From a virus, in IMG/VR virus record IMGVR_UViG_3300021964_000657, positions 1-21,461 of that record: a DNA stretch of 21,461 bases. One strand, written 5' to 3'. The translations under genes and the position numbers were made by a program. The notes under the pieces are model-generated. The model worked only from the letters and a program-made list of their open reading frames with translations, did not search any database and was not told where the DNA came from. Shown here one piece after another: positions 1-19,059 of this stretch (its first letter is position 1; every line of letters starts with the position of its first letter).

Positions 1-65
1 CCAAGCAGTATCAACACACCACTTGTTATCAATAGTATCACTATGTCTTTGAAATTTTTTATCAT
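1..65 (-). CDS. N-terminus of a small membrane protein (runs off window)
   Basis: The first 21 codons of a gene that continues past base 1. The visible peptide starts MIKNFKD and then runs into an unbroken hydrophobic stretch (IVILLITSGVLILL), a transmembrane helix or uncleaved signal anchor. Its ATG at 65-63 overlaps the TGA stop of the lipoprotein gene (ATGA), so translation is probably coupled to it. Position at the end of an endolysin/spanin-like series makes a holin or another lysis membrane protein a reasonable guess, but too little is visible to assign a family. Confidence 0.5.
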   Translation of the reverse strand, partial: MIKNFKDIVILLITSGVLILL

Positions 66-430
66 TGTTTGTTCTCCTCTGTCCCTTCGTAGTATTTCTT
101 GTATTCCTCAAGTAGGTTGTTGGTCTCTTGTAGTTTCTGTCTTATCTGCGCGAAGTTCCGGGCTATCATCTCGTAGTCCTTGTCCGTCAGTCCGAACAGA
201 ACGGGGTCAATGCCCTCGGCCTCCAGTTTGGCGAAAACTTCCTGTGCGTTCTCTGATGTTATGATTATCCAACGCACCTTCTCTAGATCCAAGGACTCTG
301 GCTTGGGCAGGTTCAACTTGGCCCGGGGTTCCTCCACGGAGAACACCTTGATCCTCTTCTCGCCTATGCTACAGGCGGAGAGAAACAATATCATGGTTAT
401 CAAAATTATCTTATTCATCATCATCCTCAT
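62..430 (-). CDS. Small lipoprotein, candidate outer-membrane spanin
   Basis: A 122-residue protein with a classic lipoprotein signal: short positive start, hydrophobic run, then lipobox LSAC with Cys at residue 20. Cleavage and lipidation would anchor the rest in the periplasm. The mature part is charged, with a helical, coiled-coil-prone tail (about residues 85-120) rich in Glu, Lys and Gln. It lies two genes downstream of the endolysin and right after a membrane-anchored coiled-coil protein, which is the arrangement of two-component (Rz/Rz1-type) spanins; outer spanins are usually shorter and more Pro-rich, so the role is inferred. Start is uncertain: ATGs at 430, 424, 421 and 418 are all in frame, and the last gives a conventional MNKIILI signal. 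It overlaps the 36-codon ORF before it. Confidence 0.65.
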   Translation of the reverse strand: MRMMMNKIILITMILFLSACSIGEKRIKVFSVEEPRAKLNLPKPESLDLEKVRWIIITSENAQEVFAKLEAEGIDPVLFGLTDKDYEMIARNFAQIRQKLQETNNLLEEYKKYYEGTEENKQ

Positions 431-521
431 ACTTGTATCGATTCTCTAATTCGTACCGGTAATCCTCGGTGTATTCAAACTCCTGGAAGTTGCCTGCATT
501 GTATCCTGTTTCCTTATTCAT
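411..521 (-). CDS. 36-residue acidic, tyrosine-rich peptide in lysis block
   Basis: A short ORF not otherwise accounted for. Its ATG (521-519) lies inside the last codons of the inner-spanin-like gene and its TAA (413-411) lies inside the start of the lipoprotein gene, so it exactly bridges two genes in a third frame. The predicted peptide has six tyrosines and an acidic end (KYEDDDE), with no signal sequence or membrane segment. No Shine-Dalgarno sequence is visible; translation would depend on coupling to the upstream stop. No family recognised. It would fill an otherwise non-coding gap of about 80 bases, which is unusual in so packed a genome and supports it being real. Confidence 0.5.
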   Translation of the reverse strand: MNKETGYNAGNFQEFEYTEDYRYELENRYKYEDDDE

Positions 522-987
522 AGTTCACGTAGTTCGGGTTGGCCAATGACGGACACTCCGGGTTTATCTCCGAGTTCTTGGTCGCCTTCAGTTCCGCTTC
601 AGTGTGTTGGGCACCTGACGCCAACTCCACACACCTGGCGGCGTTGTCAGCCCCCTTGTTGATGATCCTCTCTATGGCCTTGGTCCTGTCTATGGCCAGT
701 TTGCCGATGTCTCGTTTGCCCTTGTTGAAACGCTTGTCGAGATCGTCCAGGTCCTTCTTGAATGTCATCACGAGAGCATTTAGTTTCTTGTTGCTCTCCA
801 TTATGGCGTTGAAGTCCTTCTTCTGCTGTTCCAGTAATTTGGTCTGTGATTCTATGCCCCGTTCCAGTTCTATCTGGTTGGCCTTGAGAGTGGCGTTGTC
901 CGCTCTGAGTTTCATGACATACACACCCGCACCCGCGATGCCGGTGATCAGCATGATGGCTATCGCCATTTTTATCGTTGAAAACAT
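514..987 (-). CDS. Membrane-anchored coiled-coil protein, candidate inner spanin
   Basis: A 157-residue protein with one N-terminal transmembrane helix (about residues 5-25), then a long heptad-like helical region (about 27-110) rich in Lys, Glu, Leu and Asn, and a C-terminal segment with two cysteines (119 and 145) and a Pro/Asn-rich end. This is the architecture of Rz-type inner spanins, which sit in the inner membrane with the coiled coil in the periplasm and join an outer lipoprotein to fuse the membranes at the last step of lysis. It follows the endolysin gene by 11 bases, and a late-type promoter motif lies 8 bases before its ATG inside the end of the endolysin gene. No sequence family was recognised; the call rests on architecture and position. 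Confidence 0.6.
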   Translation of the reverse strand: MFSTIKMAIAIMLITGIAGAGVYVMKLRADNATLKANQIELERGIESQTKLLEQQKKDFNAIMESNKKLNALVMTFKKDLDDLDKRFNKGKRDIGKLAIDRTKAIERIINKGADNAARCVELASGAQHTEAELKATKNSEINPECPSLANPNYVNYE

Positions 988-995
988 AATAGCAG

Positions 996-1003
996 TATTT
1001 ATT
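996..1003 (-). promoter_or_regulatory. Late-type promoter motif AATAAATA before the inner-spanin-like gene
   Basis: On the minus strand the sequence reads AATAAATACTGCTATT and then ATG, close to the T4 late promoter core TATAAATA with its common CTATT follow-on. Only 8 bases separate the octamer from the start codon and there is no Shine-Dalgarno sequence, so a transcript from here would be nearly leaderless. It lies in the last codons of the endolysin gene. Confidence 0.5.
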
Positions 1004-1469
1004 GTATGAGGCCGGGCTTGTAGACGGTCTTACCGTTCTCTTTCATGGCAGTCAGCACACTCTTGCGATTGCCCTCTGACTTGTATGAAACGTGTACCCA
1101 ACCCGAGTCTGGCACACCTGGCGTGTAGAATTCCAATATCAGTTGGTCGAAGTCCAGGTTGTCCTCGATCCACTTGGCCACGTCATAGTTGGGTGTGCCC
1201 GGACACTCTATGTCCACCGCTTCACCTTTGCAGTGCTGTGATGTGCTTGAACCACCCACCGCCTTGTTGAGTGCTTCTCCCCTGTAGCCCGAGTTGATCA
1301 CGGTCACACCAAAGTGGTCCCTGACCTTCTGCACCACGTTCCTGAACAGCGCCGTGGCGTTGCCCATGTGTTCCTCAGTGGGAGTGTTGTCGATGCCCTG
1401 TCTCAAGGCCGTCTGGCTCTTGATGTATTCCTGTATCGTGAAATTTTGACTTAACTTTACCATCCACAT
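999..1469 (-). CDS. Endolysin: M15-family zinc peptidase
   Basis: A 156-residue protein with the M15 (D-Ala-D-Ala carboxypeptidase-like, Peptidase_M15_3) signature: SGYR at 60-63, then QHCKGEAVDIE with zinc ligands His79 and Asp86, an ILEF segment with Glu113, and WVHVS with the third ligand His126. The family cuts peptide cross-links of peptidoglycan and serves as the endolysin in many phages; length is typical of a single-domain enzyme. There is no signal peptide, so export would need a holin. Downstream lie the spanin-like genes. The first ATG (1469) and the one two codons later (MVKLS, 1463) are both plausible; both overlap the end of the preceding gene. Confidence 0.85.
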   Translation of the reverse strand: MWMVKLSQNFTIQEYIKSQTALRQGIDNTPTEEHMGNATALFRNVVQKVRDHFGVTVINSGYRGEALNKAVGGSSTSQHCKGEAVDIECPGTPNYDVAKWIEDNLDFDQLILEFYTPGVPDSGWVHVSYKSEGNRKSVLTAMKENGKTVYKPGLIQ

Positions 1470-2197: not shown

Positions 2198-2667
2198 TAT
2201 AAACTATTTAGGTCCCCCGAGGCCATGTCTGTCTCGTCCTGGCTCTCGATCTCGTCCCTGCCGTGTTTGAAGTTGCCGATCAGTTCCTTGGGCATCCTGA
2301 TCTCCACCACCCAAATGTCATGGCTGTCGATCTTGCCCTTTGTGGTGCCGGGCCTGTAGTCTTCCGGTCCCTTGATCTGTCTCGGTTTTAATAATTCGTC
2401 TCGTTTGTAGAATACCTTGCATCCACGGTCTAGCAATCTCTGGCCTCCCGCTGGGTCTGGCATCTTGTCCGCTGGCCACATGAAACTGCATGTGACGAAG
2501 TGTCTAGAGTCAACCGGTCCCGACAGCAGTTCACCATCCTCCCAGTTCTTGAACACGTACACGTCCAGTTCATCCACCACGCGCTCGAAGTCCTTCAGTA
2601 TCGATAGGGTAGGACCCACCGCGTATAAGGATTGTACGTTTCTGATTATGTCTAGGACGTCATGCAT
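2197..2667 (-). CDS. Unrecognised 156-residue protein
   Basis: A soluble protein beginning MHDVLDIIRNVQSLYAVG, followed by a likely helix (LSILKDFERVVDELDVYVF) and a beta-rich middle with tryptophans (NWEDGEL, FMWPADKMPDP) and a conserved-looking HDIWVVEIRMPKEL segment near residue 115. No catalytic motif, signal or membrane segment is seen, and I do not recognise the family. It is the first gene of the minus-strand run reading into the lysis genes, with a late-type motif 9 bases before its ATG. Its TAA overlaps the next ATG (TAATG), implying coupled translation with the 246-residue protein, perhaps a functional pair. Confidence 0.8.
   Translation of the reverse strand: MHDVLDIIRNVQSLYAVGPTLSILKDFERVVDELDVYVFKNWEDGELLSGPVDSRHFVTCSFMWPADKMPDPAGGQRLLDRGCKVFYKRDELLKPRQIKGPEDYRPGTTKGKIDSHDIWVVEIRMPKELIGNFKHGRDEIESQDETDMASGDLNSL
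2205..2212 (-). promoter_or_regulatory. Possible late-type motif CCTAAATA
   Basis: Minus-strand CCTAAATA lies 7 bases before the ATG at 2197, with no Shine-Dalgarno sequence between. It matches six of eight positions of the T4 late core TATAAATA and repeats the close spacing seen elsewhere here. It overlaps the end of the preceding gene, so chance coding sequence is possible. Confidence 0.3.
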
Positions 2668-2676
2668 AGCAAGTGT

Positions 2677-2684
2677 TATTTATC
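2677..2684 (-). promoter_or_regulatory. Late-type promoter motif GATAAATA
   Basis: Minus-strand GATAAATA in true intergenic sequence, matching seven of eight bases of the T4 late core. It lies 9 bases from the ATG at 2667 with no Shine-Dalgarno sequence. It would drive the two unknown genes and, by read-through, the lysis block. A plus-strand motif of the same kind lies about 50 bases away, so this is a divergent control region. Confidence 0.55.
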
Positions 2685-4219: not shown

Positions 4220-4443
4220 TTGGTTCTTTCCATTAGTATTTTCTTCTTGCCCTTGAATCTAAATCCCTTGTCAACAACAGCGTCCAAGTTGTAGTTTAAC
4301 AGTTTCCTCTTGCCTTTGCTAGTGTGGATTACGGGTTGTCCCTTCGCGTCAATCTCTATCGCGGTGATCTTGGCTCGGACATTTTTAAATCTGCCGATCC
4401 ATATCACGTCACCCACGTTCACCGTAAGATTGTATTGCTTCAT
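4216..4443 (-). CDS. Small basic beta-rich protein upstream of the clamp loader
   Basis: A 75-residue protein starting MKQYNLTVNVGDVIWIGRF. Alternating hydrophobic and charged residues, then a Lys/Arg-rich region (TSKGKRKLLNY, RFKGKKKILMERTK), suggest a small SH3- or KOW-like beta barrel that may bind nucleic acid. Small proteins of this appearance are common in T4-like marine phages, function unknown. The start is ATG 4443; a TTG one codon earlier is less likely because the promoter -10 box ends 7 bases before the ATG. It is the first gene of a unit reading into gp44 (ATGA overlap) and the 91-residue gene. Confidence 0.75.
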   Translation of the reverse strand: MKQYNLTVNVGDVIWIGRFKNVRAKITAIEIDAKGQPVIHTSKGKRKLLNYNLDAVVDKGFRFKGKKKILMERTK

Positions 4444-4448
4444 CAATA

Positions 4449-5492
4449 CTATATTACAGAATTTTCTACCGCTTGTCTATATAATTGTTCGGAGGCCATG
4501 TTTTTACCTTTCGCCTCCACTTGTATATCGAAGTTCTCTGAGAATGATAGTGCCCAGTCATTCACTGCACGATTTGGTAACAGGTCCGAGTGTGCCCGCA
4601 GTTTCTGTTTCTTGCAACCACGTTCCAATAACATTTTGATATCATGCATCTCGGTGTGTGTCTTTTCACCTAGTCCTGCCACTTCTAGATGTTCATCCCT
4701 TGAATAGGAGTAGTGCATACTGGGTCTCACACCACGCCACGAATCTATCACACGTTTGACCCTGTCATCAGTGGGTTCTATGTATTCCTCGTCACGGATC
4801 CAGTGGTGATGGACATCTAGAACTAGTGCCAGGTCCTTCTCCAGTTCTAGACTCCTCTCAAGCCCATGTCCCATCTCGTCATTCTCGATTGTGATCAGAT
4901 TACGTGCTTCTTGAGAGAGTTTAGGTAGTGCCCGACGTATGCCGTCTGGTCCTTGCCTGCCTGAGATGTGTACGTTGATCTTACAACCATCCTGGAACGT
5001 TTTGCCAAATCCCATCCAACGTGCCATGTCCGCGTGATATTCAAATTCTTCTATGCTTCGCTCCACTATGTCTGGAGTCTCACTTGCGAGCACACAGAAC
5101 TGTCCTGGATGGAAACTGACCTTGACGTCTAGTTTCCGGGCCATCTCGCCCACCGGTGCGAATAGATTTGCTAGATGATCCTGTATGTCCTGTTGTTGCC
5201 ACCATGACTTCCAGTCCTTCTCTGTGTAGCCCTGTAGCATCTCCGAACCTAATCTAACCATTCTGCGTTCGGGTGGCAGTGTGCCCACACGCTCTATGAG
5301 CCTACGTGCGGCCGTGGTGTTGTGTGTCATGATGTCCCACTGTCGCTGTTCGGCTTCGTCTTTATGTTCACGTAGCCAACGCATGGTGGTGCTTCTGCCG
5401 TTTAGATCCCTGTCCTTGGCGTTCACCTTCATACCGCCAAACTCCGACTCGTCATTGAGCCATTTGCAACAGAAACCAAAACGTTTTACCAT
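4449..5492 (-). CDS. uvsE: UV damage endonuclease, UvdE/UvsE family
   Basis: A 347-residue TIM-barrel DNA repair enzyme that nicks 5' to UV photoproducts and other lesions. Family landmarks in order: RFGFCCKWL near the N-terminus, HPGQ at 128-131, IEND at 202-205 (metal-binding Glu203), LDVHHH at 225-230 (Asp226, His229), MHYS with His260, HTEMHD around 279-284, HSD at 301-303, and VEAKGKN at 325-331 (Glu326). Length fits the family. T4 itself uses DenV, a different glycosylase, for this job. Odd point: the residue two before His260, a carboxylated lysine in the Thermus enzyme, appears to be Ser258. A sigma70-like promoter lies immediately before the ATG. Confidence 0.9.
   Translation of the reverse strand: MVKRFGFCCKWLNDESEFGGMKVNAKDRDLNGRSTTMRWLREHKDEAEQRQWDIMTHNTTAARRLIERVGTLPPERRMVRLGSEMLQGYTEKDWKSWWQQQDIQDHLANLFAPVGEMARKLDVKVSFHPGQFCVLASETPDIVERSIEEFEYHADMARWMGFGKTFQDGCKINVHISGRQGPDGIRRALPKLSQEARNLITIENDEMGHGLERSLELEKDLALVLDVHHHWIRDEEYIEPTDDRVKRVIDSWRGVRPSMHYSYSRDEHLEVAGLGEKTHTEMHDIKMLLERGCKKQKLRAHSDLLPNRAVNDWALSFSENFDIQVEAKGKNMASEQLYRQAVENSVI
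4451..4479 (-). promoter_or_regulatory. Sigma70-like promoter for the clamp-loader unit, near-leaderless
   Basis: On the minus strand: -35 TAGACA (4479-4474), 17-base spacer, -10 TAATAT (4456-4451), then 7 bases to the ATG at 4443. The predicted +1 falls at or beside the start codon and no Shine-Dalgarno sequence is present. The boxes lie across the end of the UvdE gene. Confidence 0.6.
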
Positions 5493-5498
5493 GTTTCT

Positions 5499-5526
5499 AT
5501 TATAACAGATATTTGAAAAATGTCTA
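5499..5526 (-). promoter_or_regulatory. Extended -10 sigma70-like promoter of the UvdE gene, leaderless
   Basis: On the minus strand: TAGACA (5526-5521), 16-base spacer, TGT then TATAAT (5504-5499), a consensus -10 with an extended TGn. Six bases separate the -10 box from the ATG at 5492, so +1 should fall on or just before the A of ATG. There is no Shine-Dalgarno sequence. The -35 lies at the end of the ParB-like gene. Confidence 0.7.
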
Positions 5527-5913
5527 CTCCAACAGTGTTTCCATCATGGCCCAGTGTCCTATGATGTCGCTACAGTGCAGTCGGAAGCCGTGTTCCCTGT
5601 CGATATCCCTCAATATCTTGTTGGCTTTGGCCATGCTTAGTCCCACGTTGGCAGGAAGTTGCAAGGCATTGATTGTTCTACGTTTCAGACCTTTTGCGGC
5701 CTGTACCCTGTGCCATCCGTCTGTCAACAGGAAGTATCCCGACCCCTTTATTGGAGTGACCAGTATTGGATCCCAAGCACCGTCCTTCTTTAACTTGTTG
5801 ATCCATGACCTTTTCTCTTTGTTAAGAGGACGTTCTACACCCAATCCCATCTCTGCCATGGTGACTAATTTGCTTAATTCAACTTTAATTTTTTTGATCT
5901 TAATCGCTTTCAT
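5524..5913 (-). CDS. ParB/sulfiredoxin-fold protein
   Basis: A 129-residue protein with a ParB-like N-terminal nuclease/CTPase fold: DPILVTPIKGSGYFLLTDGW at 48-67, followed by HRVQAAKGLKRRTINALQLP. The TDGWHRVQAAK segment (64-74) is the counterpart of the GxxRxxA motif (usually G.HR..A) of the superfamily. Phages carry such domains in DNA-binding, modification and nuclease proteins. The C-terminus (REHGFRLHCSDIIGHWAMM) is helical. It lacks the helix-turn-helix part of plasmid ParB, so a partition role is unlikely. It overlaps the zinc-knuckle gene before it by 14 bases. Confidence 0.7.
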   Translation of the reverse strand: MKAIKIKKIKVELSKLVTMAEMGLGVERPLNKEKRSWINKLKKDGAWDPILVTPIKGSGYFLLTDGWHRVQAAKGLKRRTINALQLPANVGLSMAKANKILRDIDREHGFRLHCSDIIGHWAMMETLLE

Positions 5914-6148
5914 ACTCTATGTTATCTATGTCCTGTATTATCTGCCATTCCGGACCACGTGGCCATGGTTTCTCCCTTGCAGGGTAACTGTTCTCATCTG
6001 ATATCTCCCTGAACTTGTTTGCACAAGGTGGCCCACAGAAGGGCTTTATCAGTCTCTTGTCGTATTTGGAATCGTGTATGCTGTCGTACCAGTATATCGC
6101 GTTGTGGAAGGTCTTCTTGCAGACGTAACAGGTGTGTGGTCTATACAT
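5900..6148 (-). CDS. Small zinc-knuckle-like protein (CxxC, CxxxC)
   Basis: An 82-residue protein with CYVC near residues 7-10 and CGPPC near 38-42, four cysteines placed as in a small zinc-binding knuckle or treble clef, followed by an acidic C-terminus (DIDNIEYESD). Between them is an aromatic and His-containing loop (FHNAIYWYDSIHDSKYD). No enzyme motif is seen. It overlaps the genes on both sides (8 and 14 bases) and so is probably translated with the ParB-like gene. It may bind nucleic acid or another protein; family not recognised. Confidence 0.7.
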   Translation of the reverse strand: MYRPHTCYVCKKTFHNAIYWYDSIHDSKYDKRLIKPFCGPPCANKFREISDENSYPAREKPWPRGPEWQIIQDIDNIEYESD

Positions 6149-7013
6149 TTTTGTTGATTAAGAGTTTTGCCACACCTACGTTTTTCCCTCTTTCGGTGCA
6201 GTAGGCATTCATGATAGTTTTTCCAGGAACAAGTTTATACAAACTGCATAATTCTAAATAAGATTTTTTGTATTTCGTTACAAGAAAATCCATATCAAAA
6301 CGATCCAGATAATATTTTCCTATCATTACATTTGGATAAGAAACCATTCTGTATTCATTTTCAATTTTAATAGTGTCATTGGTTTCGGTTTTTAGCCATC
6401 TCACTCCGATTCTGCTCCAGTGGAGACCAAAACACTTGCTAAGACTCATGGCTACACCTTTTATGCATTCTTTGGATAAATCAAGATCAAGATCCCATCC
6501 GATTGGTAACCATGCACAATCGAGGTAAACATCTACACCAATATTGTTGGCCTTGTCTAAGATTTCATTATACATCGGATGTGGCGCTCTAGCGTTAGGA
6601 AAAGGATATTCAATAATCAAAGGTTTACCCGCCACGATACTATCTAGATCCACACGTTTCAAACTAGGTTTTAATTTATTGTAGTAAGGATATCCATTTT
6701 TAAGCACCTGTAAATTATCTAATCCGTGCGTCATGATCATTTGATCTAAGAAATTTTGACATCCTGTTATTACATCTTTTTGCACGAAAAGTTCCAAACC
6801 GTTAACTTTTACATATCGGTGTTTTAACAAGGAGTCTTCGAATTTTTTTATAAATGTTGAATATTCGGTTGTGATGTATGATATTGTTTTCTTATCTGAA
6901 TTTTTGAAAAAATCTATCCTGGCTTTCAGTAGATCTCTATCGTTAGAAAATGTTGGAATCCAATCTAAGGCAAATCCTTTATCGTCTAATGCTTTTTCGT
7001 GTTGGTTAGTCAT
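6141..7013 (-). CDS. Short PLP-dependent aminotransferase-like (fold type I) protein
   Basis: A 290-residue protein with the core signature of class I/II aminotransferases. VYLDCAW (Asp165) corresponds to the Asp that pairs with the PLP ring nitrogen, and SLSKCFGLHWSRIG places Lys193 and Arg201 exactly eight residues apart, as Lys258 and Arg266 are in aspartate aminotransferase (Schiff base and phosphate contacts). Before these, EYPFPNARAPHPMYNEI resembles the NPxxPtG region. The family is usually 380-420 residues, so the N-terminal arm and much of the C-terminal small domain are missing or reduced. The gene is clearly AT-richer than its neighbours, pointing to separate origin. It could act on an amino sugar or amino acid, or have lost activity. 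Its ATG overlaps the GroES-like gene by 8 bases. Confidence 0.65.
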   Translation of the reverse strand: MTNQHEKALDDKGFALDWIPTFSNDRDLLKARIDFFKNSDKKTISYITTEYSTFIKKFEDSLLKHRYVKVNGLELFVQKDVITGCQNFLDQMIMTHGLDNLQVLKNGYPYYNKLKPSLKRVDLDSIVAGKPLIIEYPFPNARAPHPMYNEILDKANNIGVDVYLDCAWLPIGWDLDLDLSKECIKGVAMSLSKCFGLHWSRIGVRWLKTETNDTIKIENEYRMVSYPNVMIGKYYLDRFDMDFLVTKYKKSYLELCSLYKLVPGKTIMNAYCTERGKNVGVAKLLINKNV

Positions 7014-7449
7014 TACCCGGCAGTGATGTCATCTGACTCATGCCACCTGTGTTCACGTAGCCGGCTTTGGTCCTGTTTTGCTCAGGCTCCTCATCTGACA
7101 CTAGTAAGATGTCATTCTCATCTATCATTCTTACTTCTAGTTCCACGCCCTCTTTCTTGACCTTGAATCCTCTGCTCCATCTTCCGTGTGACACCATGAC
7201 CCATTGTCCAACAGTCACGTCTTCCTGTTGGTCACCTATGGCGTAGACCTTGCCCCATCTAGGGTGTATTCCTGATTCTGATCCGTCATCGTCCGTAAGT
7301 ATTATGCCACCTTTGGTCTTTGTCTCTCCGAAGTGCATGTCGGAGACCAACACACGTTTCTTGAGTGGTGTAATGTCGTAGTCAACCGTGTACTGCTGTC
7401 CGCCGTGTGATCCAAATCCCTTTGATTGTAAGTCTTCTATTGTTCCCAT
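7006..7449 (-). CDS. GroES-like co-chaperonin (functional analogue of T4 gp31)
   Basis: A 147-residue protein containing the GroES fold: ITPLKKRVLV at 26-35, the mobile loop HFGETKTKGGIILTDDDG at 39-56 (GGIIL is the GroEL-contacting part), WGKVYAIGDQQEDVTVGQWV at 65-84, and MIDENDILLV at 108-117. In T4, gp31 replaces host GroES so that GroEL can fold the major capsid protein. The loop here is closer to bacterial GroES (ETKSAGGIVLT) than to T4 gp31. There is an extra N-terminal stretch of about 25 residues and a polar C-terminal tail of about 28. A strong extended -10 promoter lies 10 bases before the ATG. The gene has higher GC than the two AT-rich genes around it. Confidence 0.85.
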   Translation of the reverse strand: MGTIEDLQSKGFGSHGGQQYTVDYDITPLKKRVLVSDMHFGETKTKGGIILTDDDGSESGIHPRWGKVYAIGDQQEDVTVGQWVMVSHGRWSRGFKVKKEGVELEVRMIDENDILLVSDEEPEQNRTKAGYVNTGGMSQMTSLPGND

Positions 7450-7458
7450 GATAATAAC

Positions 7459-7486
7459 ATTATAGCATATTTTATGTTTTTTGCAA
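7459..7486 (-). promoter_or_regulatory. Extended -10 sigma70-like promoter of the GroES-like gene
   Basis: On the minus strand: TTGCAA (7486-7481), 16-base spacer, TGC then TATAAT (7464-7459), a consensus -10 with an extended TGn. Ten bases separate the -10 box from the ATG at 7449, so a leader of only about 2-4 bases is expected. No Shine-Dalgarno sequence is present. The -35 lies in the last codons of the SGNH-like gene. Confidence 0.75.
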
Positions 7487-8233
7487 GTTCAAAAAAACAT
7501 TTTCTAAAAAATCTTCGTATGGTTTATAGTGATCTGGATGAAGTGTTTCATCGATATTGTCATGGGATAATAGAAAGTTCTTAAGTTGTAATGCTTTGTC
7601 AACATCGTCTGCAAAATCGAAATGGAAGATTTTACTCCTATCTTTTAAAAACTCAAAAATACCATAACTATAAACTGAGAAAACATCTTTTGGCCTGATA
7701 AGTTTACTATGACCACAGAAGTCTACAATAGATTTATTTGGATTAAAATTGTTTGTGATAAACGCTGTGGTAATAAAATTTGGATATCCATTGATAGTTT
7801 CTTGTACAGATTGGTATTGTTTTTTTAATATTTCTCCAAAGTACTCGTGTGTGTTTGAATAATGCTTTGGATCCACTAACTTGAGTTCCAGCAAGGTCCT
7901 ACCCACTTCACTGAACGCTACTAGGAAGACTATATCAACGTCTAGATTTTTCAAAAATACCACGTCTTCCTTTAACATAGTGTTTATAGCACTATTGCTG
8001 AGTCCACCTATAGACCTGTTGATTAGGAAATATTCAGGGTATTGATTATGGAATACTCTATCGAAGAATACCGAGTCTAACCAACTGTCTCCAATCGCAT
8101 AAAATATCTTTTTCCTAATTGTAAGTTTTTCTTTGGCGTGAAAGAGCCATGGATACCCGCTTTCGTCATGACTGCCTACTAAATCTTTTTTATTCCTACT
8201 ATTAAAGATGTCACTTAGTTTTTTATCATACAT
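7472..8233 (-). CDS. SGNH/GDSL-like hydrolase or related protein, AT-rich
   Basis: A 253-residue protein with SGNH-like blocks: AIGDSWLD with candidate nucleophile Ser50 (46-53), NRSIGGLSNSAIN with the block II glycine (72-84), FLVAFSEVG after a predicted strand (block III position, where the usual Asn is not evident), and DETLHPDHYKPY near 228-239 with candidate catalytic His232. Such proteins hydrolyse esters, often removing acetyl groups from sugars. The altered block III and the one-residue-longer Asp-His spacing leave activity uncertain. The gene is markedly AT-rich compared with 8297-13257. It has its own sigma70-like promoter. With the PLP-transferase-like gene it may belong to a surface- or sugar-modifying accessory set. 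Confidence 0.6.
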   Translation of the reverse strand: MYDKKLSDIFNSRNKKDLVGSHDESGYPWLFHAKEKLTIRKKIFYAIGDSWLDSVFFDRVFHNQYPEYFLINRSIGGLSNSAINTMLKEDVVFLKNLDVDIVFLVAFSEVGRTLLELKLVDPKHYSNTHEYFGEILKKQYQSVQETINGYPNFITTAFITNNFNPNKSIVDFCGHSKLIRPKDVFSVYSYGIFEFLKDRSKIFHFDFADDVDKALQLKNFLLSHDNIDETLHPDHYKPYEDFLENVFLNLQKT

Positions 8234-8240
8234 GACTTAA

Positions 8241-8269
8241 ATGTTACAATCTTTAAATTGTAAAGTCAA
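8241..8269 (-). promoter_or_regulatory. Sigma70-like promoter of the SGNH-like gene, leaderless
   Basis: On the minus strand: TTGACT (8269-8264), 17-base spacer, TAACAT (8246-8241), then 7 bases to the ATG at 8233. The site is truly intergenic. Predicted +1 is at or next to the start codon and there is no Shine-Dalgarno sequence. Confidence 0.65.
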
Positions 8270-8296
8270 TTCACACAAACTGTAAAAGTCTCGATT

Positions 8297-8743
8297 TTAT
8301 TCCAAGCCGTCAAGAGCCGCGTCTATGCCCTTCTTGTCCGTGCTCTCTGTCTTGGGTTTGAAAGTCGTCACCGGAGTTGTTTCCACCTCGACTTTTTGTT
8401 CCACCACGGATTCTGGTTTGGGTTGTGTTTTCTTAACTTCTCTTTTGGCAACGGGCGTCATCTTCTGAATGGTCTTCACTGGTTCCACTGTGGGTGCCGG
8501 TGTTGGCTTGTTCTTGGTCGGCGTGTCATCCACCATTCCCTTGGGTTGCTCGTAATACTTTCTGATGATGGTCTCTTTGGATGTGACCACCTGTCCACCC
8601 GCTCCCAACACATCGCCTCTAGCGTTGACTTTCATATTACCGACCGCTGGGATCGACTCATTGGCCGCCCTCAGTTTCTCTATGTCTATCATGCGTCCCT
8701 GCATGGTCCTGTACATTTTTTTTCTGGGTGCTCTTGCTACCAT
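8297..8743 (-). CDS. Conserved-type marine phage protein with Pro/Thr/Lys-rich tail
   Basis: A 148-residue protein in two parts. The first 70 residues (KKMYRTMQGRMIDIEKLR, then PAVGNMKVNARGDVLGAGGQ) form a compact basic module of a type I associate with T4-like cyanophage and pelagiphage genomes, function unknown. The rest is low in complexity, rich in Pro, Thr, Lys, Val and Glu (PTPAPTVEPVK, VETTPVTTFKPK), probably disordered, ending in a short acidic helix (DAALDGLE). A ribosome-binding site AGGAG lies 9 bases before the ATG, unlike the leaderless genes next to it. It could be a virion or scaffold-associated protein. Confidence 0.75.
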   Translation of the reverse strand: MVARAPRKKMYRTMQGRMIDIEKLRAANESIPAVGNMKVNARGDVLGAGGQVVTSKETIIRKYYEQPKGMVDDTPTKNKPTPAPTVEPVKTIQKMTPVAKREVKKTQPKPESVVEQKVEVETTPVTTFKPKTESTDKKGIDAALDGLE

Positions 8744-8771: not shown

Positions 8772-9293
8772 TCATCGCAGGAATTCGGTGATGTCCAAAT
8801 TGTACAGCAAGGGATTGATCTTGTGTACTCCTATCAGGAACAGGCAGAAACTGGCCACGCTGGACCCCCTGCCCACACCCCATACTATGTTGTTTGCTCG
8901 CAGTGTGTCCACGAAGTAGATCAGGAACTGTAGCACACGTATGAATCGTTTCTTCTCGAACAGGTCATACTCCAACTGTACCCTCATTCTCTCCTCATCG
9001 GTCTGGCATTTGTCCAACAGCCATTGTAACACGTTGATCTGGTAGTATGATTCCGGCATGTGCCATTGTTCGCAATTCTTGTTATCGAAATCCTGTAGTG
9101 ATTCCCGTAAGGGTACTTGATTTATTTTTGGTAGATCCAGCCCTAGCTCTTTCAGTGCCGCGTCATACTTGTCGGTGTCCTCGAAGAATAATTTTGATAT
9201 GTCGAAGTCAGGGCTGGTGTATAATAGATCTATCGCGTCGTCTTCCGTGAATATGACGTCACCGTGCTCATTTGTCTTTGTCTTTTCCACCAT
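8772..9293 (-). CDS. Fragment of the DNA polymerase III alpha (DnaE) fold
   Basis: A 173-residue protein whose C-terminal half follows the palm-entry region of bacterial PolIII alpha: ERMRVQLEYDLFEKKRF and LQFLIYFVDTLRAN match the segment usually reading ERL..EL..I...GF..YFLIV.D, and VGRGSSVASFCLFLIGV (140-156) with INPLLYN matches GPGRGSAAGSLV...LGIT.IDPL.YNL. It ends right after LDITEFLR, where DnaE would continue to the catalytic PDIDID motif. The active-site aspartates are therefore missing, so it cannot be a polymerase alone. The N-terminal 75 residues are acidic and unassigned. It overlaps the gene before it by 26 bases. Its role might be to bind nucleotides, DNA or host replisome parts. 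Confidence 0.65.
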   Translation of the reverse strand: MVEKTKTNEHGDVIFTEDDAIDLLYTSPDFDISKLFFEDTDKYDAALKELGLDLPKINQVPLRESLQDFDNKNCEQWHMPESYYQINVLQWLLDKCQTDEERMRVQLEYDLFEKKRFIRVLQFLIYFVDTLRANNIVWGVGRGSSVASFCLFLIGVHKINPLLYNLDITEFLR

Positions 9294-9903
9294 CTAGAAC
9301 CTTTGGGTTGAACTCGAATATTTTAGCATGTTCCTGGTGTCGCTTGTCAATGTTAATCTGTTCTGTGTTCCAACTGTAGTGTCCCGTGTATATGCCCTTG
9401 TCCAGTTCCTGATCATAAGTTGCCGTGTCCGGCCTCAACCACCACGGATCGAACTTGTTGAATTTCGCCGAGAACCAGTCAGGCCTATCTAACAGTATAA
9501 GCTCATTGCTGTCCTTGTCAACCGTGTAGGTAATACCATCTCCCTGCCACGAGCTGAGTTCTATGTGGTTTATGGTTATCTTGCTATCCAGTATCGAGTT
9601 GGCCTTGCAGAAACACACCGCGGCCATGATCTGGTCATAGGGTGGTTTTGGTAATTCAATGAACCTGTTGGTGCTGTTCTTCTTCAGCACATTATAGAGG
9701 GGTTCTTCACGCCACGTGGTTATGGTGTTGGCGAACACCTGTTCGAATAAGTTCTTTAGCCTCTCGAAGTATTCGGTCTGCTCTTTGAGGCTTGCTGTGT
9801 GAGGTGTCAGTGATATGTTTAACTTATATTCATTGGCGAACAGTTCACCGTCCACTATGATAATGCTCTTGAATCGGGTCTTCCAGGTGAATGTGTTTGA
9901 CAT
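9268..9903 (-). CDS. Unrecognised 211-residue protein
   Basis: A soluble protein starting MSNTFTWKTRFKSIIIVDGE. It has beta-type segments (ITINHIELSSW, ITYTVDKDSNELILLDRP), a helical stretch (EYFERLKNLFEQVFANTITT), several Trp-rich motifs (FDPWWLRPD), and a Lys/Asp-rich tail (GGKDKDK). No family is recognised. The tail overlaps the start of the DnaE-like gene by 26 bases, so the two are likely made together. A late-type motif (AGTAAATA) is 6 bases before the ATG, overlapping the stop of the previous gene, which hints at late expression and a virion or assembly role. Confidence 0.75.
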   Translation of the reverse strand: MSNTFTWKTRFKSIIIVDGELFANEYKLNISLTPHTASLKEQTEYFERLKNLFEQVFANTITTWREEPLYNVLKKNSTNRFIELPKPPYDQIMAAVCFCKANSILDSKITINHIELSSWQGDGITYTVDKDSNELILLDRPDWFSAKFNKFDPWWLRPDTATYDQELDKGIYTGHYSWNTEQINIDKRHQEHAKIFEFNPKVLDGGKDKDK

Positions 9904-9909
9904 CGGGAA

Positions 9910-9917
9910 TATTTACT
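9910..9917 (-). promoter_or_regulatory. Late-type motif AGTAAATA, 6 bases from ATG
   Basis: Minus-strand AGTAAATA followed by TTCCCG and ATG (9903). It overlaps the TAG stop of the preceding gene, and the core is partly made by that stop, so chance is a real alternative. The gap and the absence of a Shine-Dalgarno sequence match the other close-set late-type motifs. Confidence 0.35.
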
Positions 9918-10183: not shown

Positions 10184-10747
10184 TTATGCGTACTGTTTGC
10201 CCAGTTGGTGCATCAGTATGGTCGTGCCACCGTCTGGTGACATGAATTCGTACAGTGCCCTACCCAACCCAGGTTGGATGGTGTCAGACGTACCGTCACT
10301 TCCTGTAACATTGTCTGCCTTGATCACTGCTGTTGGGAAAATAAGATTGGTTGCTCCGACGGATACCGTTATGTCTAATATGATCCTGCCCAGTGATCCG
10401 GATGTTGGTAGATTCAAAAAGGAAAATGTTGTGTCCGCGGTTATGGTTGCGGTCTGGTAATGTCCGTTTTCGTGATTCAATGTAATTGTGCCACTGCTTA
10501 CCGTGCCGTGCTCGTACACTGTCTCACCGTTGTCTTTGAGCACTGCGTTTGATATTGTGTTGCCGCTGAAATTATTCGTGGCATTCAGATTCGCTTTGTT
10601 CGTCTGTAGTGTTTCTATCTCGGTCTTGGCTTCCGTGAAGTTGTTCTTGATCGCGTTGAAGTTGTCCCTGAAGCCCTGTGAACTGTTGTCCTGTCCGGCT
10701 ACCGGATACGTCCCATCTATGTTTCCTGGTACTATATTGCTCGCCAT
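10184..10747 (-). CDS. Short fibre-like virion protein, divergent member of the array
   Basis: A 187-residue protein. Its N-terminus (GQDNSSQGFRDNFNAIKNNF) is a divergent version of the opening module of the four fibre-like genes at 13482-17663, whose matching segment ends in a NF.ELY-like motif. A helical linker (EAKTEIETLQTNKANL) follows, then a beta-rich body (SSGTITLNHENGHYQTATIT) with glycine and serine typical of phage fibres or baseplate-associated proteins, and GGTTILMHQLGKQYA at the end. It begins in a TAATG overlap with the 836-residue protein. A late-type motif and a ribosome-binding site (AAGGAA) precede it. Exact virion location is not shown by the sequence. Confidence 0.7.
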   Translation of the reverse strand: MASNIVPGNIDGTYPVAGQDNSSQGFRDNFNAIKNNFTEAKTEIETLQTNKANLNATNNFSGNTISNAVLKDNGETVYEHGTVSSGTITLNHENGHYQTATITADTTFSFLNLPTSGSLGRIILDITVSVGATNLIFPTAVIKADNVTGSDGTSDTIQPGLGRALYEFMSPDGGTTILMHQLGKQYA

Positions 10748-13257
10748 TATTGTATTCCTTTGTCTCTGAATCTTAGATATTTATCGTTGGCTCTCTCCAC
10801 CCTGATAATTGTGCCTGATGCGGGCACTTCCTTGGTAAAGGTTATCGTGGTCTTGTTGTTGGTGGTGTCGTATGATAGTGTAATACCATATTCATGATCA
10901 GCAGATCTCAACTCTGTATCTGCTGTTGGATTTAAACTTCCTGCAAAACCGCTAGCGGTCCATCCTTCTCCTGCCAGCACAGTTTGAGTTCCTTCCTTAA
11001 CAAGAATGTCTTCTTGGTGCACTAATTCATTAACTACAAATGCTGTTGTGGATCCGTCTGCCGTGAACTCCTCTGGGGATACCACGCTCTTGTTTACCTG
11101 GTATCTGTCTATGGTGAACGCTATGTTCTTAAAATTCAATGCCTTGTCCTCTATCCTCTTCTTGATCAGTGCGGCGGTTCCTGGTTTACAGTAGCATATT
11201 GGCACTGCCATGACATAGCCCAGTGGCGCCAGTCCGCCCACCTGTGTGGTCTTCATCCACAGTGGCAGGTAGTCCCACTCCTTGTGTCCCAGGCTCTTCA
11301 TCCTGGACCTCATGTTGGCCACCGCGTTTGGATATATCTTCTCCATGTATCCCAAGTCAGCGCTCATTTGGTTGGCGTACCTGACCTTGGATCCTGATGT
11401 GCTGAATGACAGGCCACCGTCCGTTGTGACTTCGTAGTACATGTAGTCCGCGGTGGCGTTCATGCTTGACGCCCTAGGACCCAGCATGGGTTTGACCACG
11501 GCGCCCCTCAGTGTTATCGAGCTCGAAACGGCCTGACCATTTTTGTTGACCAGGTTGTCCTTGATCTCTATGTAGACCACTTCGTATTTGGTTGTTGTGC
11601 CTTCCTTGGCTATTGCGGTCTTGAGATCACCGAAGTATAAAGTCTTGGGCGCATGGTTCTGCTCCATCTGTTGTTGGAATTCGGTCAGTGTCTGCGCCTC
11701 CAGTCCCGCCATCATCAGCATGTCAGGTTTGACTCGCATTCCGAAGTTGCTGTCCTCTGGCCTGTAGATGTAGGCCGGTGAGTTGATGTTGGGATCCTGT
11801 GCTATGTTGTAGAATATGTTCTGGTCTATGAATGAGGTGGCGTGTCCGGTCATGTTGCCATACTCGGTCTGCGTGTATGGTATGTTGATGTTGAGCGTGA
11901 ACTCCTTGGATGTGGCCGCCGCCTGGTACTGATCGCTCACTGTCACAGTGAACGTGAAACTCCTAGTGGAGTCCGTGAAGTCGCTGGGGTCTATGGTGCC
12001 TATCAGGTTTCCCTGCTCCGACAGTGTTATGCCCATGGGAAGTGTGCCAGATGTTACCGAGTAACTCAACACACGATTGGTCTCTTCCGCCACCGCCTCT
12101 ATGGCCAGTGTGCTTGGTATGTCTGCGGTCAGTGTGCCTATAACTGTGGGAGTGGTGAATGCTATGCCTATGTCTATCTCACCTATCACCTTCATTGTGA
12201 AGGTCTGATCTGTGAAAACGTTTATGCCCGTGGCCACTACCCTGTTTGCCCTGACGATGAATGAATAATCGACCTCGACCGCGGCCTGTCTGGCCAACTG
12301 ACCGTAGATCTCCCCGGAGTTGATGTCTATCGACAACCCTGTTGGTAGTGACCCAGACTGTATGATGTATTCTAGGTCCGCCTGCAGAGGATCGAAATCC
12401 TCCACGTCAATTTTTATCACGACCTGGTTATCGTGCCTGAACGTGCCCAGGTCCGAGGCTGTCCTGAACACCGGTCTCCTGTTGGCGCTGAGGTCCATGG
12501 TCAACGGTGAACCGTCGATCTCTGTGGCGTCTATCGTGATAGCCGTGTTGGAAACCCTCCAGAAGTCAGCGGAGTAGACGAATATGGAATTGTTCTGTTC
12601 CACGTAACTGGTGCCGTCGGACACCCTGACTATGAAGTCAAAATTCTTGCTGATGCTTTTCGTTGTCACTGTGCGGTCATACACCACATCATCGTAGTCT
12701 TCCTGGTTGGCGTCATACCCACCACGTGCACCGTATCTCTGGTCCTCTGTGAGTTGTACTATGCCTGATATCAGTCCGGTCTTGCTCATGGTCACACCTG
12801 GTGGCAGTGATCCCTGCACTATCTCGTACACCAAAGTCTGCCCGGCTTCCGTGTCTGTGTCCGTGGCCTGCATTTGCAGTGAAACGCTGGACCCATCTAT
12901 GACCCAGTACAATCCTACACGCGTGGAATCATCTAATCTGAGTTGTCCAGAGGCCGTGGTGAAAGTGGGTGTGTCTGCTCCTTGAACATCTAGACTGAAA
13001 GTCCTGTCTGTGATCTGGGCACCGGCCGTGGCTCGCACGACGAAGGTGTAAAGAGTTCTCTTGGCAACCTCAGCCGGAGTGCCCGTCAGTAGGCCCGTTG
13101 TCGTCACCTGCATTCCTGCGGGTAGGCTTCCTGCGATCACGGAGTACGTAATGGCTGTGGAGTCGCTGGTGTTCGCTTCTAACTGTAGCGAATAAGCGAC
13201 CTGTTCATCGATAGATGCTAGTTTACCTGCCGTGGTCGTCCACACTGGTGTTGCCAT
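10747..13257 (-). CDS. Large virion protein with four He_PIG (Ig-like) repeats
   Basis: An 836-residue protein. The first 460 residues contain four repeats of the putative-Ig He_PIG type, each with a GSLP-G core and a G.I.G or G.L.G strand: GSLPAG near 43, GSLPPG near 149, GSLPTG near 302 and GTLPMG near 403. Each is followed by a F.F.V.V strand pair (YTFVVRA, FDFIVRVSD, YSFIVRAN, FTFTVTVSD). Such domains are stalk or spacer modules that often mediate surface binding. Residues 460-836 have a different composition, including AYIYRPEDSNFGMRVKPD and YANQMSADLGYMEKIYP, and probably form a distinct structural domain. It has the best ribosome-binding site of the block (AAGGAG) and a late-type motif. 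It may be a fibre or decoration-type protein. Confidence 0.85.
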   Translation of the reverse strand: MATPVWTTTAGKLASIDEQVAYSLQLEANTSDSTAITYSVIAGSLPAGMQVTTTGLLTGTPAEVAKRTLYTFVVRATAGAQITDRTFSLDVQGADTPTFTTASGQLRLDDSTRVGLYWVIDGSSVSLQMQATDTDTEAGQTLVYEIVQGSLPPGVTMSKTGLISGIVQLTEDQRYGARGGYDANQEDYDDVVYDRTVTTKSISKNFDFIVRVSDGTSYVEQNNSIFVYSADFWRVSNTAITIDATEIDGSPLTMDLSANRRPVFRTASDLGTFRHDNQVVIKIDVEDFDPLQADLEYIIQSGSLPTGLSIDINSGEIYGQLARQAAVEVDYSFIVRANRVVATGINVFTDQTFTMKVIGEIDIGIAFTTPTVIGTLTADIPSTLAIEAVAEETNRVLSYSVTSGTLPMGITLSEQGNLIGTIDPSDFTDSTRSFTFTVTVSDQYQAAATSKEFTLNINIPYTQTEYGNMTGHATSFIDQNIFYNIAQDPNINSPAYIYRPEDSNFGMRVKPDMLMMAGLEAQTLTEFQQQMEQNHAPKTLYFGDLKTAIAKEGTTTKYEVVYIEIKDNLVNKNGQAVSSSITLRGAVVKPMLGPRASSMNATADYMYYEVTTDGGLSFSTSGSKVRYANQMSADLGYMEKIYPNAVANMRSRMKSLGHKEWDYLPLWMKTTQVGGLAPLGYVMAVPICYCKPGTAALIKKRIEDKALNFKNIAFTIDRYQVNKSVVSPEEFTADGSTTAFVVNELVHQEDILVKEGTQTVLAGEGWTASGFAGSLNPTADTELRSADHEYGITLSYDTTNNKTTITFTKEVPASGTIIRVERANDKYLRFRDKGIQ
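10778..10785 (-). promoter_or_regulatory. Late-type promoter motif GATAAATA with a normal leader
   Basis: Minus-strand GATAAATATC, 30 bases before the ATG at 10747. The leader contains AAGGAA as ribosome-binding site. It lies within the last codons of the He_PIG protein. Unlike the close-set motifs, this has room for a conventional 5' UTR. Confidence 0.5.
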
Positions 13258-13277: not shown

Positions 13278-13285
13278 TATTTATT
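13278..13285 (-). promoter_or_regulatory. Late-type promoter motif AATAAATA with a normal leader
   Basis: Minus-strand AATAAATACC in intergenic sequence, 20 bases before the ATG at 13257. The leader holds AAGGAG at 13270-13265. This is the clearest late promoter plus ribosome-binding site in the window and drives the 836-residue protein. Confidence 0.6.
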
Positions 13286-17033: not shown

Positions 17034-17663
17034 TTATATCGCCTGTAGTACTAGTTTCTTCCAGATGGTAGTCACTCCATCATGATCTGCTGTGCAGACA
17101 TATAGATTTGTACCATCCCATGATATTGATCCTGCTCGGTCTCCGGAACTGCCCAAACCAGTAGCCGTCTTGCTAGTGTTGATCACTATCCTGTCATCAT
17201 TGACAACTATGTTTCCTGTGCCCGATGCCGAAAGTTTCAAGTCGTCATTCGATCTCGTGGCAGAGATGTTATTGCCACTGAATGTGAAATCACCGATTCT
17301 GTTCAGAGAACCATCAAAAGTCACGTTGCCGGAAACCCCAAAAGTGCCCTGTACCGATGAATTGTCGGACAGTATTATCGTGCCTGTGCCGTTGCTCTGC
17401 AGTGTCAGGCTGGCGTTGGTGGTTATGGGTGTTATGGTGGTGTTTGAGATCTGAAGTTGATCAACTTCTATGACCCCTGTGCCATTGGCCTGCAGTTTGA
17501 GGTCACCGTTCGTTATCGCAGTCGTGATCAGACCTGTGGAACCGTCTCCAACCAACTGGTACACTTCGTCGAAGTTGGAGTTGACCTTGGTCATGGCGGT
17601 ACGTAAAGTGTCGCCCGTCGCTGGATTTCCTAGTGTTCCCGTGTCTATCGTAAGTTTAGCCAT
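17034..17663 (-). CDS. Shortest fibre-like paralog of the array, first in transcription
   Basis: A 209-residue protein. N-terminal module DTGTLGNPATGDTLRTAMTK then VNSNFDEVYQLVGD. Three beta units (ITNGDLKLQANGTGVIEV, ISNTTITPITTNASLTLQSN, FSGNNISATRSNDDLKLSAS). The C-terminus differs from the others: GLGSSGDRAGSISWDGTNLY then VCTADHDGVTTIWKKLVL, a small beta domain often seen as the last segment of marine phage fibre proteins. It opens the fibre transcription unit, 13 bases after a late-type motif that shares a palindrome with the plus-strand zinc-protein promoter. No Shine-Dalgarno sequence is visible. Its stop overlaps the next start region. Confidence 0.75.
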   Translation of the reverse strand: MAKLTIDTGTLGNPATGDTLRTAMTKVNSNFDEVYQLVGDGSTGLITTAITNGDLKLQANGTGVIEVDQLQISNTTITPITTNASLTLQSNGTGTIILSDNSSVQGTFGVSGNVTFDGSLNRIGDFTFSGNNISATRSNDDLKLSASGTGNIVVNDDRIVINTSKTATGLGSSGDRAGSISWDGTNLYVCTADHDGVTTIWKKLVLQAI

Positions 17664-17675
17664 AATCTGTTATGC

Positions 17676-17690
17676 GTATTTATTAAATAC
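17676..17690. promoter_or_regulatory. Palindromic divergent late-type promoter
   Basis: GTATTTATTAAATAC is a perfect palindrome around one central base. Read on the minus strand it gives AATAAATA (17684-17677) for the fibre unit starting at 17663; on the plus strand it gives ATTAAATA (17682-17689) for the gene starting at 17695, with only 5 bases to its ATG. The two octamers overlap, so polymerase could bind in only one direction at a time. Confidence 0.55.
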
Positions 17691-17694
17691 TGGT

Positions 17695-17973
17695 ATGTTC
17701 ATAGAAACCCTAAAGACGATGAAATTGTACAAGAGGGAGAGCAAACTGGGTACCATGCACACCTACCACAGGAAGAACCTGATCTACGTGTTCCGGTGTG
17801 ACGCCTGTTCAGACACATTCATGAGGCCCAAGTCAAAGGTGGATCCGGCCCGTGCGTCGAACGACTACAAGCACGTGTGCAACAAGTGTGATTCCAAGAA
17901 GTTCGCCCAGAGTGTGGGCGTCAAGATGCGTCGTGTGTATCAGTTGGACGCCAGCAGTACCAGGACTTTATAA
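17695..17973 (+). CDS. Small CxxC/CxxC zinc-binding basic protein
   Basis: A 92-residue plus-strand protein. Cys35 and Cys38 (FRCDAC) and Cys62 and Cys65 (HVCNKC) make a four-cysteine zinc site, with a basic spacer (RPKSKVDPARASNDY) and a basic end (KKFAQSVGVKMRRVY). The shape fits a zinc ribbon or treble clef that binds nucleic acid; HNH-type residues are not evident. The start was taken as the ATG at 17695, just after the divergent late-type motif; reading further upstream enters antisense fibre sequence. Its TAA shares the palindrome TTATAA with the stop of the converging minus-strand gene. It is one of only two plus-strand loci, so it may have its own regulation. Confidence 0.75.
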   Translation: MFIETLKTMKLYKRESKLGTMHTYHRKNLIYVFRCDACSDTFMRPKSKVDPARASNDYKHVCNKCDSKKFAQSVGVKMRRVYQLDASSTRTL

Positions 17974-19046: not shown

Positions 19047-19059
19047 GCTAGTAATTATC

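Follow-up and report, generated by a model that had tools for sequence, protein, structure and literature searches.

How are genes translated whose promoter leaves hardly any room for a leader? The question is raised by a virus locus in which four sigma70-like -35/-10 pairs end within a few bases of an ATG. In phages, leaderless mRNAs have been described mostly as exceptions, and promoters placed for them are rare among the phages known so far. The reading preferred here, with a probability of about 0.85, is that a whole phage clade makes leaderless mRNAs from both host-sigma70 and gp55-type late promoters, beside genes led by a Shine-Dalgarno (SD) sequence, as suggested by the motifs in its DNA.

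The window and its relatives

The window, meaning the whole stretch of DNA analysed, is the 21,461-base IMG/VR virus fragment IMGVR_UViG_3300021964_000657. It bears T4-like replication, tail, lysis and accessory genes, almost all on the minus strand, and its clamp loader shares 55% identity with the counterpart from jumbo myophages of the PA5oct group. No near DNA match was found among GenBank phages, relatives are plentiful in IMG/VR, and Rfam and tRNA searches of the window returned nothing. The window very probably belongs to a large, uncultured marine clade of T4-like phages.

Adjoining the structural genes, positions 8772-9293 (minus strand) encode a 173-aa stand-alone piece of the DNA polymerase III alpha NTPase domain, which is kept in relatives, with an SD sequence. 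The genes at 6141-7013 and 7472-8233 (minus strand) are locally low in GC (36-39% against 45-50%) and have very few orthologs in relatives.

Sigma70-like sites in the window

An earlier note on this DNA had placed four -35/-10 pairs ahead of the starts 4443, 5492, 7449 and 8233, and all are present on the minus strand. The spacings given there agree with the sequence except at 7449, where the gap is 9 and not 10 bases, and the extended TGn reported for two sites is found, as TGT precedes the -10 box at 5492 and TGC at 7449. The sites and the two genes that matter most are as follows:

4444..4479, minus strand: promoter-like TAGACA-17-TAATAT within the uvdE 3' end, 7 bases to ATG 4443
5493..5526, minus strand: sigma70 promoter of uvdE, TAGACA (5526-5521), 16 bases with TG at 5507-5506, TATAAT (5504-5499), 6 bases to ATG 5492
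4449..5492, minus strand: uvdE, UvdE-type UV-damage endonuclease gene, 347 aa (PF03851, E 3e-30; phrog_8420), predicted leaderless
7450..7486, minus strand: sigma70 promoter of groES, TTGCAA (7486-7481), 16 bases, TATAAT (7464-7459) with TGn, 9 bases to ATG 7449
7006..7449, minus strand: groES, GroES (Cpn10)-like co-chaperonin gene (PF00166, E 2.9e-9), predicted leaderless or nearly so
8234..8269, minus strand: candidate sigma70 promoter TTGACT-17-TAACAT, 7 bases to ATG 8233

A first alternative is that AT-rich upstream regions simply yield -10-like words near ATGs that have no function. It gains from the whole-window count of sigma70-like sites, which shows no excess (34 against 27.6 +/- 6.0 in shuffles), and from the 4443 site, which looks accidental. 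Because that count shows no excess, the signal lies in position and not in number: a promoter scoring at least 9/12 lies 5-9 bases before the start in 4 of the 30 window genes, where dinucleotide shuffles average 0.24 (P=0.0005), and the same scan in five other 5-base bins gave 0, 0, 0, 2 and 0 genes. There is a slight circularity in this test, as the threshold of 9/12 is the score of the weakest site; the tests on the relatives are free of it.

Conservation separates the sites. At 4443, the -10 box lies in uvdE codons, none of nine orthologs passes the sigma70 test, and the box is absent in relatives whose upstream gene differs; it is probably not a promoter and likely arose by chance. For 8233, only two ortholog starts can be aligned, one of them nearly identical to the window, and a chance origin of this candidate is possible. 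Thus, the leaderless transcription proposed for all four genes is not supported at 4443 but is strongly supported as a prediction for uvdE and groES, through conservation in the relatives and the genome-wide test described below.

uvdE and groES

Among the uvdE orthologs, 50 of 62 have a sigma70 promoter whose distance from the ATG is 5-6 bases, in upstream sequences that fall into 16 distinct contexts, and an SD sequence occurs in four of the 62. Most positions of the -35 box, the TG and the -10 box are 92-100% conserved, compared with much lower values at most spacer positions.

Regarding groES, the promoter is found at a gap of 5-9 bases in 58 of 70 orthologs, none of which (0/70) has an SD sequence, and a leader of about 2-3 nt, rather than zero, is predicted in the window. 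In most relatives the -35 box seems to lie within the 3' end of the preceding g148-family gene, as 'TTGACGG'. The window carries an inserted gene (7472-8233) that separates groES from the g148-family gene, and groES has there a promoter of similar geometry that is not the usual one of the relatives.

Promoter placement across the large relatives

The genome-wide scan of -10-to-ATG distances with shuffled controls, which the earlier note had proposed, was run on five, then six, large relatives, with ORFs called mechanically from the first ATG and dinucleotide shuffles as control, and it produced sharp peaks at gaps of 5-8 bases. In five relatives (739 ORFs), sigma70 pairs at gaps 5/6/7 number 10/27/10, against about 1.3 each in shuffles, and ATAAATA at gaps 5-8 occurs 19/11/13/11 times, against about 0.5 each; outside the peak gaps, sigma70 pairs are low and ATAAATA is rare. 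Extending the sample to six relatives, 154 of 894 genes carry a sigma70 -10 box or the T4-late-like HTAAATA 5-9 bases before the start. The Poisson and Fisher values quoted for these genomes assume independent samples, which the relatives are not.

The chief signals in an unbiased k-mer search at fixed distances were TAAATA at gap 5-6, TTGACA at 28-29 together with TATAAT at 6, and the SD sequence. The features of a sigma70 promoter, TTGACA and TATAAT separated by 16-18 bases, appear both in these fixed-gap k-mers and in the uvdE conservation profile, and a motif resembling the T4-type late promoter TATAAATA appears in the clade as the HTAAATA peak. The same holds when ORF calls are ignored, as ATG follows HTAAATA 52/35/24/24 times at gaps 5-8 over a background of 10, and follows a sigma70 -10 box 36 times at gap 6 over a background of about 7.6; in this ORF-independent scan, GTG and TTG show no excess at the peak gaps.

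These genes also have the hallmarks of leaderless transcripts, with a -10 box ending about 5-8 bases before the start, a preference for AUG and a missing SD sequence: SD motifs precede 7 of the 154 leaderless-type genes (5%), compared with 345 of the 740 others (47%; Fisher 3e-27). In addition, codon-position bias, with the greatest variation at third positions, starts at codon 2 in most genes tested (uvdE, groES and late-type genes), which makes the AUG the true start.

Against a chance origin of the placement stand the sharp peaks at gaps 5-8 relative to both shuffles and neighbouring gaps, the -35 box at a fixed spacing, the conservation across the 16 upstream contexts and the lack of a peak in other AT-rich phages. 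Chance is therefore most improbable as the explanation, and for the clade as a whole it is already refuted.

Regarding the kinds of genes involved, the sigma70-type leaderless families include uvdE, groES, thymidylate synthase, a QueE-like protein and exonucleases, and probably a DnaJ-like protein, as its N-terminus is read. The late-type families comprise an Rz-like spanin, virion proteins, terminase and a tail-tube-like protein, and the two sets match the early and late classes of T4-like phages. The description of the four window genes as early-type was thus too narrow, as late-type promoters are placed in the same manner, in the window too (987, 2197, 2667, 9903 and 17695).

Late-type elements in the window

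62-1469, minus strand: lysis cassette, with an M15 peptidase endolysin and two Rz-like spanins
988..1002, minus strand: late-type promoter ATAAATA (1002-996), 8 bases to ATG 987 of an Rz-like spanin (phrog_739), predicted leaderless
2198..2211, minus strand: late-type promoter CTAAATA, 7 bases to ATG 2197 of a virion structural protein (phrog_13138)
2668..2683, minus strand: late-type promoter ATAAATA, 9 bases to ATG 2667 of a virion structural protein (phrog_12928)
9904..9916, minus strand: late-type element GTAAATA, which shares bases with the upstream stop codon, 6 bases to ATG 9903
17683..17694, plus strand: late-type TTAAATA, called from the sequence, 5 bases to ATG 17695 of a 92-aa protein
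19047..19058, minus strand: late-type variant ATAATTA, including GATAAT, 5 bases to ATG 19046 of an A-type Fe-S carrier (PF01521)
13278..13284, minus strand: for contrast, late promoter ATAAATA at 20 bases from ATG 13257, with the SD sequence AAGGAG in between

In the lysis cassette, the spanin at 514-987 carries the leaderless-type late promoter, and TAAATA is found at gap 4-9 in 33 of its 37 orthologs. The late motif recurs in orthologs of the gene at 2667 (45/62, gap 4-9), of that at 2197 (9/29) and of that at 9903, where TAAATA is present at gap 4-9 in 37 of 72 and an SD sequence in none of the 72. The gene at 17695 has an apparent ortholog in relative G002 (40885-41163) that belongs to a late-leaderless family, and its element overlaps the divergent late promoter of the minus-strand gene at 17663. 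The stretch 17664-17694 is the near-palindromic GTATTTATTAAATAC, which could represent overlapping divergent late promoters for the genes at 17663 (minus strand) and 17695 (plus strand).

The Fe-S carrier had been put forward as a weaker sigma70 case. GATAAT does occur 7 bases before ATG 19046, but 9 of 13 orthologs keep ATAATTA at gap 4-6, and the sigma70 assignment was dropped; as ATAATTA lies at about 5 bases mostly without a -35 box, it fits a late-type element better.

The same late motif also precedes genes of the ordinary kind. TAAATA lies 10-40 bases upstream of the tail gene at 13257 in 77/77 orthologs, with an SD sequence in 74 of them, and for the tail gene at 10747 the figures are 98/98 for the late motif at 10-40 bases and 87/98 for the SD sequence. 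Since these SD-led tail genes share the motif, leaderlessness appears to be set gene by gene.

This bears on a second alternative, which takes the AU-rich element ahead of the ATG for a translation signal, read by S1 or as a start context of the Bacteroidetes type, instead of a promoter. AU-rich start contexts do substitute for the SD sequence in some bacteria (PMC3160421), but a TTGACA hexamer is found at the exact sigma70 spacing, the phages also have TAAATA 10-40 bases ahead of their SD-led tail genes, and SD sequences are common among the remaining genes. It is very unlikely, and the promoter reading is retained.

From promoter to start codon

A sizeable share of the genes in this clade would therefore be transcribed as leaderless or nearly leaderless mRNA. 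Host-sigma70 promoters (TTGACA, about 16-17 bases, TGnTATAAT) would serve early genes and genes of metabolism (among them uvdE, groES, thymidylate synthase and exonucleases), and HTAAATA, presumably recognised by a late sigma of gp55 type, would serve late genes such as the spanin, virion proteins and terminase. By standard geometry, the sigma70 -10 box lies at -12 to -7 and the T4 late octamer at -13 to -6, so that the A of the AUG becomes +1 at a sigma70 gap of 6 and a late gap of 5; the geometry is taken from E. coli and T4 and may not be that of the host. Where the late box is followed by a gap of 8-9, a leader of about 3-4 nt would result. The holoenzymes of the host and of gp55 type would start at or beside this A, and the 5' end of the mRNA of many genes, early and late, is expected on the AUG or no more than a few bases away. 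With such RNA ends, the ribosome must bind the 5'-terminal AUG without an SD sequence, and other genes, including the tail genes under the same late promoter, would keep leader and SD.

Alternatively, the promoters could be real and serve mainly downstream genes, with the first AUG translated from a longer read-through mRNA. As many as 91 of the 154 leaderless-type genes lie less than 30 nt from an upstream gene on the same strand, and read-through mRNA may exist too; however, the SD sequence is absent exactly at these genes, which would be a disadvantage if they were translated chiefly from leadered mRNA, and both the exclusive use of AUG and the position of +1 would be left without explanation. 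Improbable as it is, this is the least remote of the three alternatives, and leaderless transcription from these promoters is still favoured.

A gp55-like late sigma gene was detected in relative G001 (77360-77013; 30% identity, E 4e-12), with no match in the window fragment itself, and tblastn of gp45 from T4 and HTVC008M against the fragments gave no match.

Comparison with known phages and bacteria

T4 late promoters read TATAAATA (gp55/gp33/gp45) and those of cyanophages NATAAATA (PMC2984593); the clade shares their core motif and late-type genes, as well as a gp55-like gene in G001. The difference is one of placement. In T4, P-TIM40, P-SSM2, S-SKS1, PA5oct, Vibrio phage 2.275.O, Atu_ph07, Cr30 and phiM12, 0-2 late motifs were found at gap 4-9, at or below background; in the clade, gaps 5-8 are the commonest position, one with only 0-2 cases, at or below background, in T4, P-TIM40, P-SSM2, S-SKS1, PA5oct, Cr30 and phiM12. 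The pattern is also absent from the more distant relative G004, and its absence extends to most relatives.

Among Pelagibacter phages, late motifs at gap 5-8 number 10 in HTVC008M, where 1.0 is expected, and Mosig shows a weak pattern (7 against 2.4, P=0.01); both differ from the clade in family (Kyanoviridae) and in having few sigma70 leaderless-type genes (2 and 4). Melnitz lacks the late-motif placement, and the paper describing it lists early and late promoters, with 'leaderless' solely in the title of a cited work (PMC9004378). In SAR11 genomes, collected with a 16S probe, SD sequences are few and no peak stands out clearly; the pooled 16S loci gave 11 against 4.8 (P=0.01). A habit of alphaproteobacterial hosts was rejected as the cause, as the T4-like Cr30 and phiM12 are without the late pattern.

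The closest system is the Thermus phage phiYS40, in which most middle and late mRNAs are reported to be leaderless (PMC3594737). Run as a positive control through the same pipeline, it gave a -10 box at gap 6 and TTGACA at gap 29, the same sigma70-to-AUG geometry as in the clade, and both mix leaderless-type and SD-led genes. However, phiYS40 belongs to another lineage, the phylum of its host itself makes many leaderless mRNAs, and shifted host initiation factors (IF2 up, IF3 down) are a mark of phages of its kind, whereas the clade is known here from sequence alone and involves a T4-type late promoter as well. In bacteria, TA-led or leaderless genes, recognised by a -10 box some 10-12 bases ahead of the start codon, are established (Zheng et al. 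2011, PMC3160421; PMC12340547), and in Deinococcus-Thermus the -10 box is adjacent to the ORF (PMC12340547). The clade agrees with them in the -10 placement and the lack of SD, but adds a strong -35 box and the second, late promoter type. No report of leaderless T4-type late transcripts was found in the open-access literature, to which the search was confined, subscription papers being outside its scope.

Possible reasons and initiation factors

If this reading is correct, the T4 late system, well studied as it is, would prove able to support translation without an SD sequence, and predictions of start codons, promoters and expression would fail for such phages wherever an SD sequence is required. 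As HTVC008M shares the late-promoter pattern, Mosig weakly so, and has a named cultured host (Pelagibacter), a test in culture is possible.

The reason for leaderlessness may lie in compact promoters, often near or inside the preceding gene, or in a separate class of translation; the earlier note suggested that it may favour translation in the host. It is conceivable, though doubtful, that the two translation classes are maintained on purpose, with a leaderless regulon spanning early and late promoters that would stay translatable when SD-dependent 30S initiation changes in the infected cell, e.g. by way of 70S initiation or altered initiation factors. An adjustment of initiation factors as in phiYS40 was rejected, IF3 being found in one of 14 records only. 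The title of Tedin et al. 1999, as cited in PMC12340547, presents IF3 as antagonistic to leaderless starts, so that a phage-encoded IF3 would, if anything, oppose leaderless translation. The single IF3 gene (PF00707, E 5e-19) is in relative G005, at 7791-8042 (plus strand), directly upstream of an S21-like ribosomal protein gene at 8171-8329 (plus strand), and the same IF3/S21-like neighbours appear in the annotation of Vibrio phage 2.275.O.
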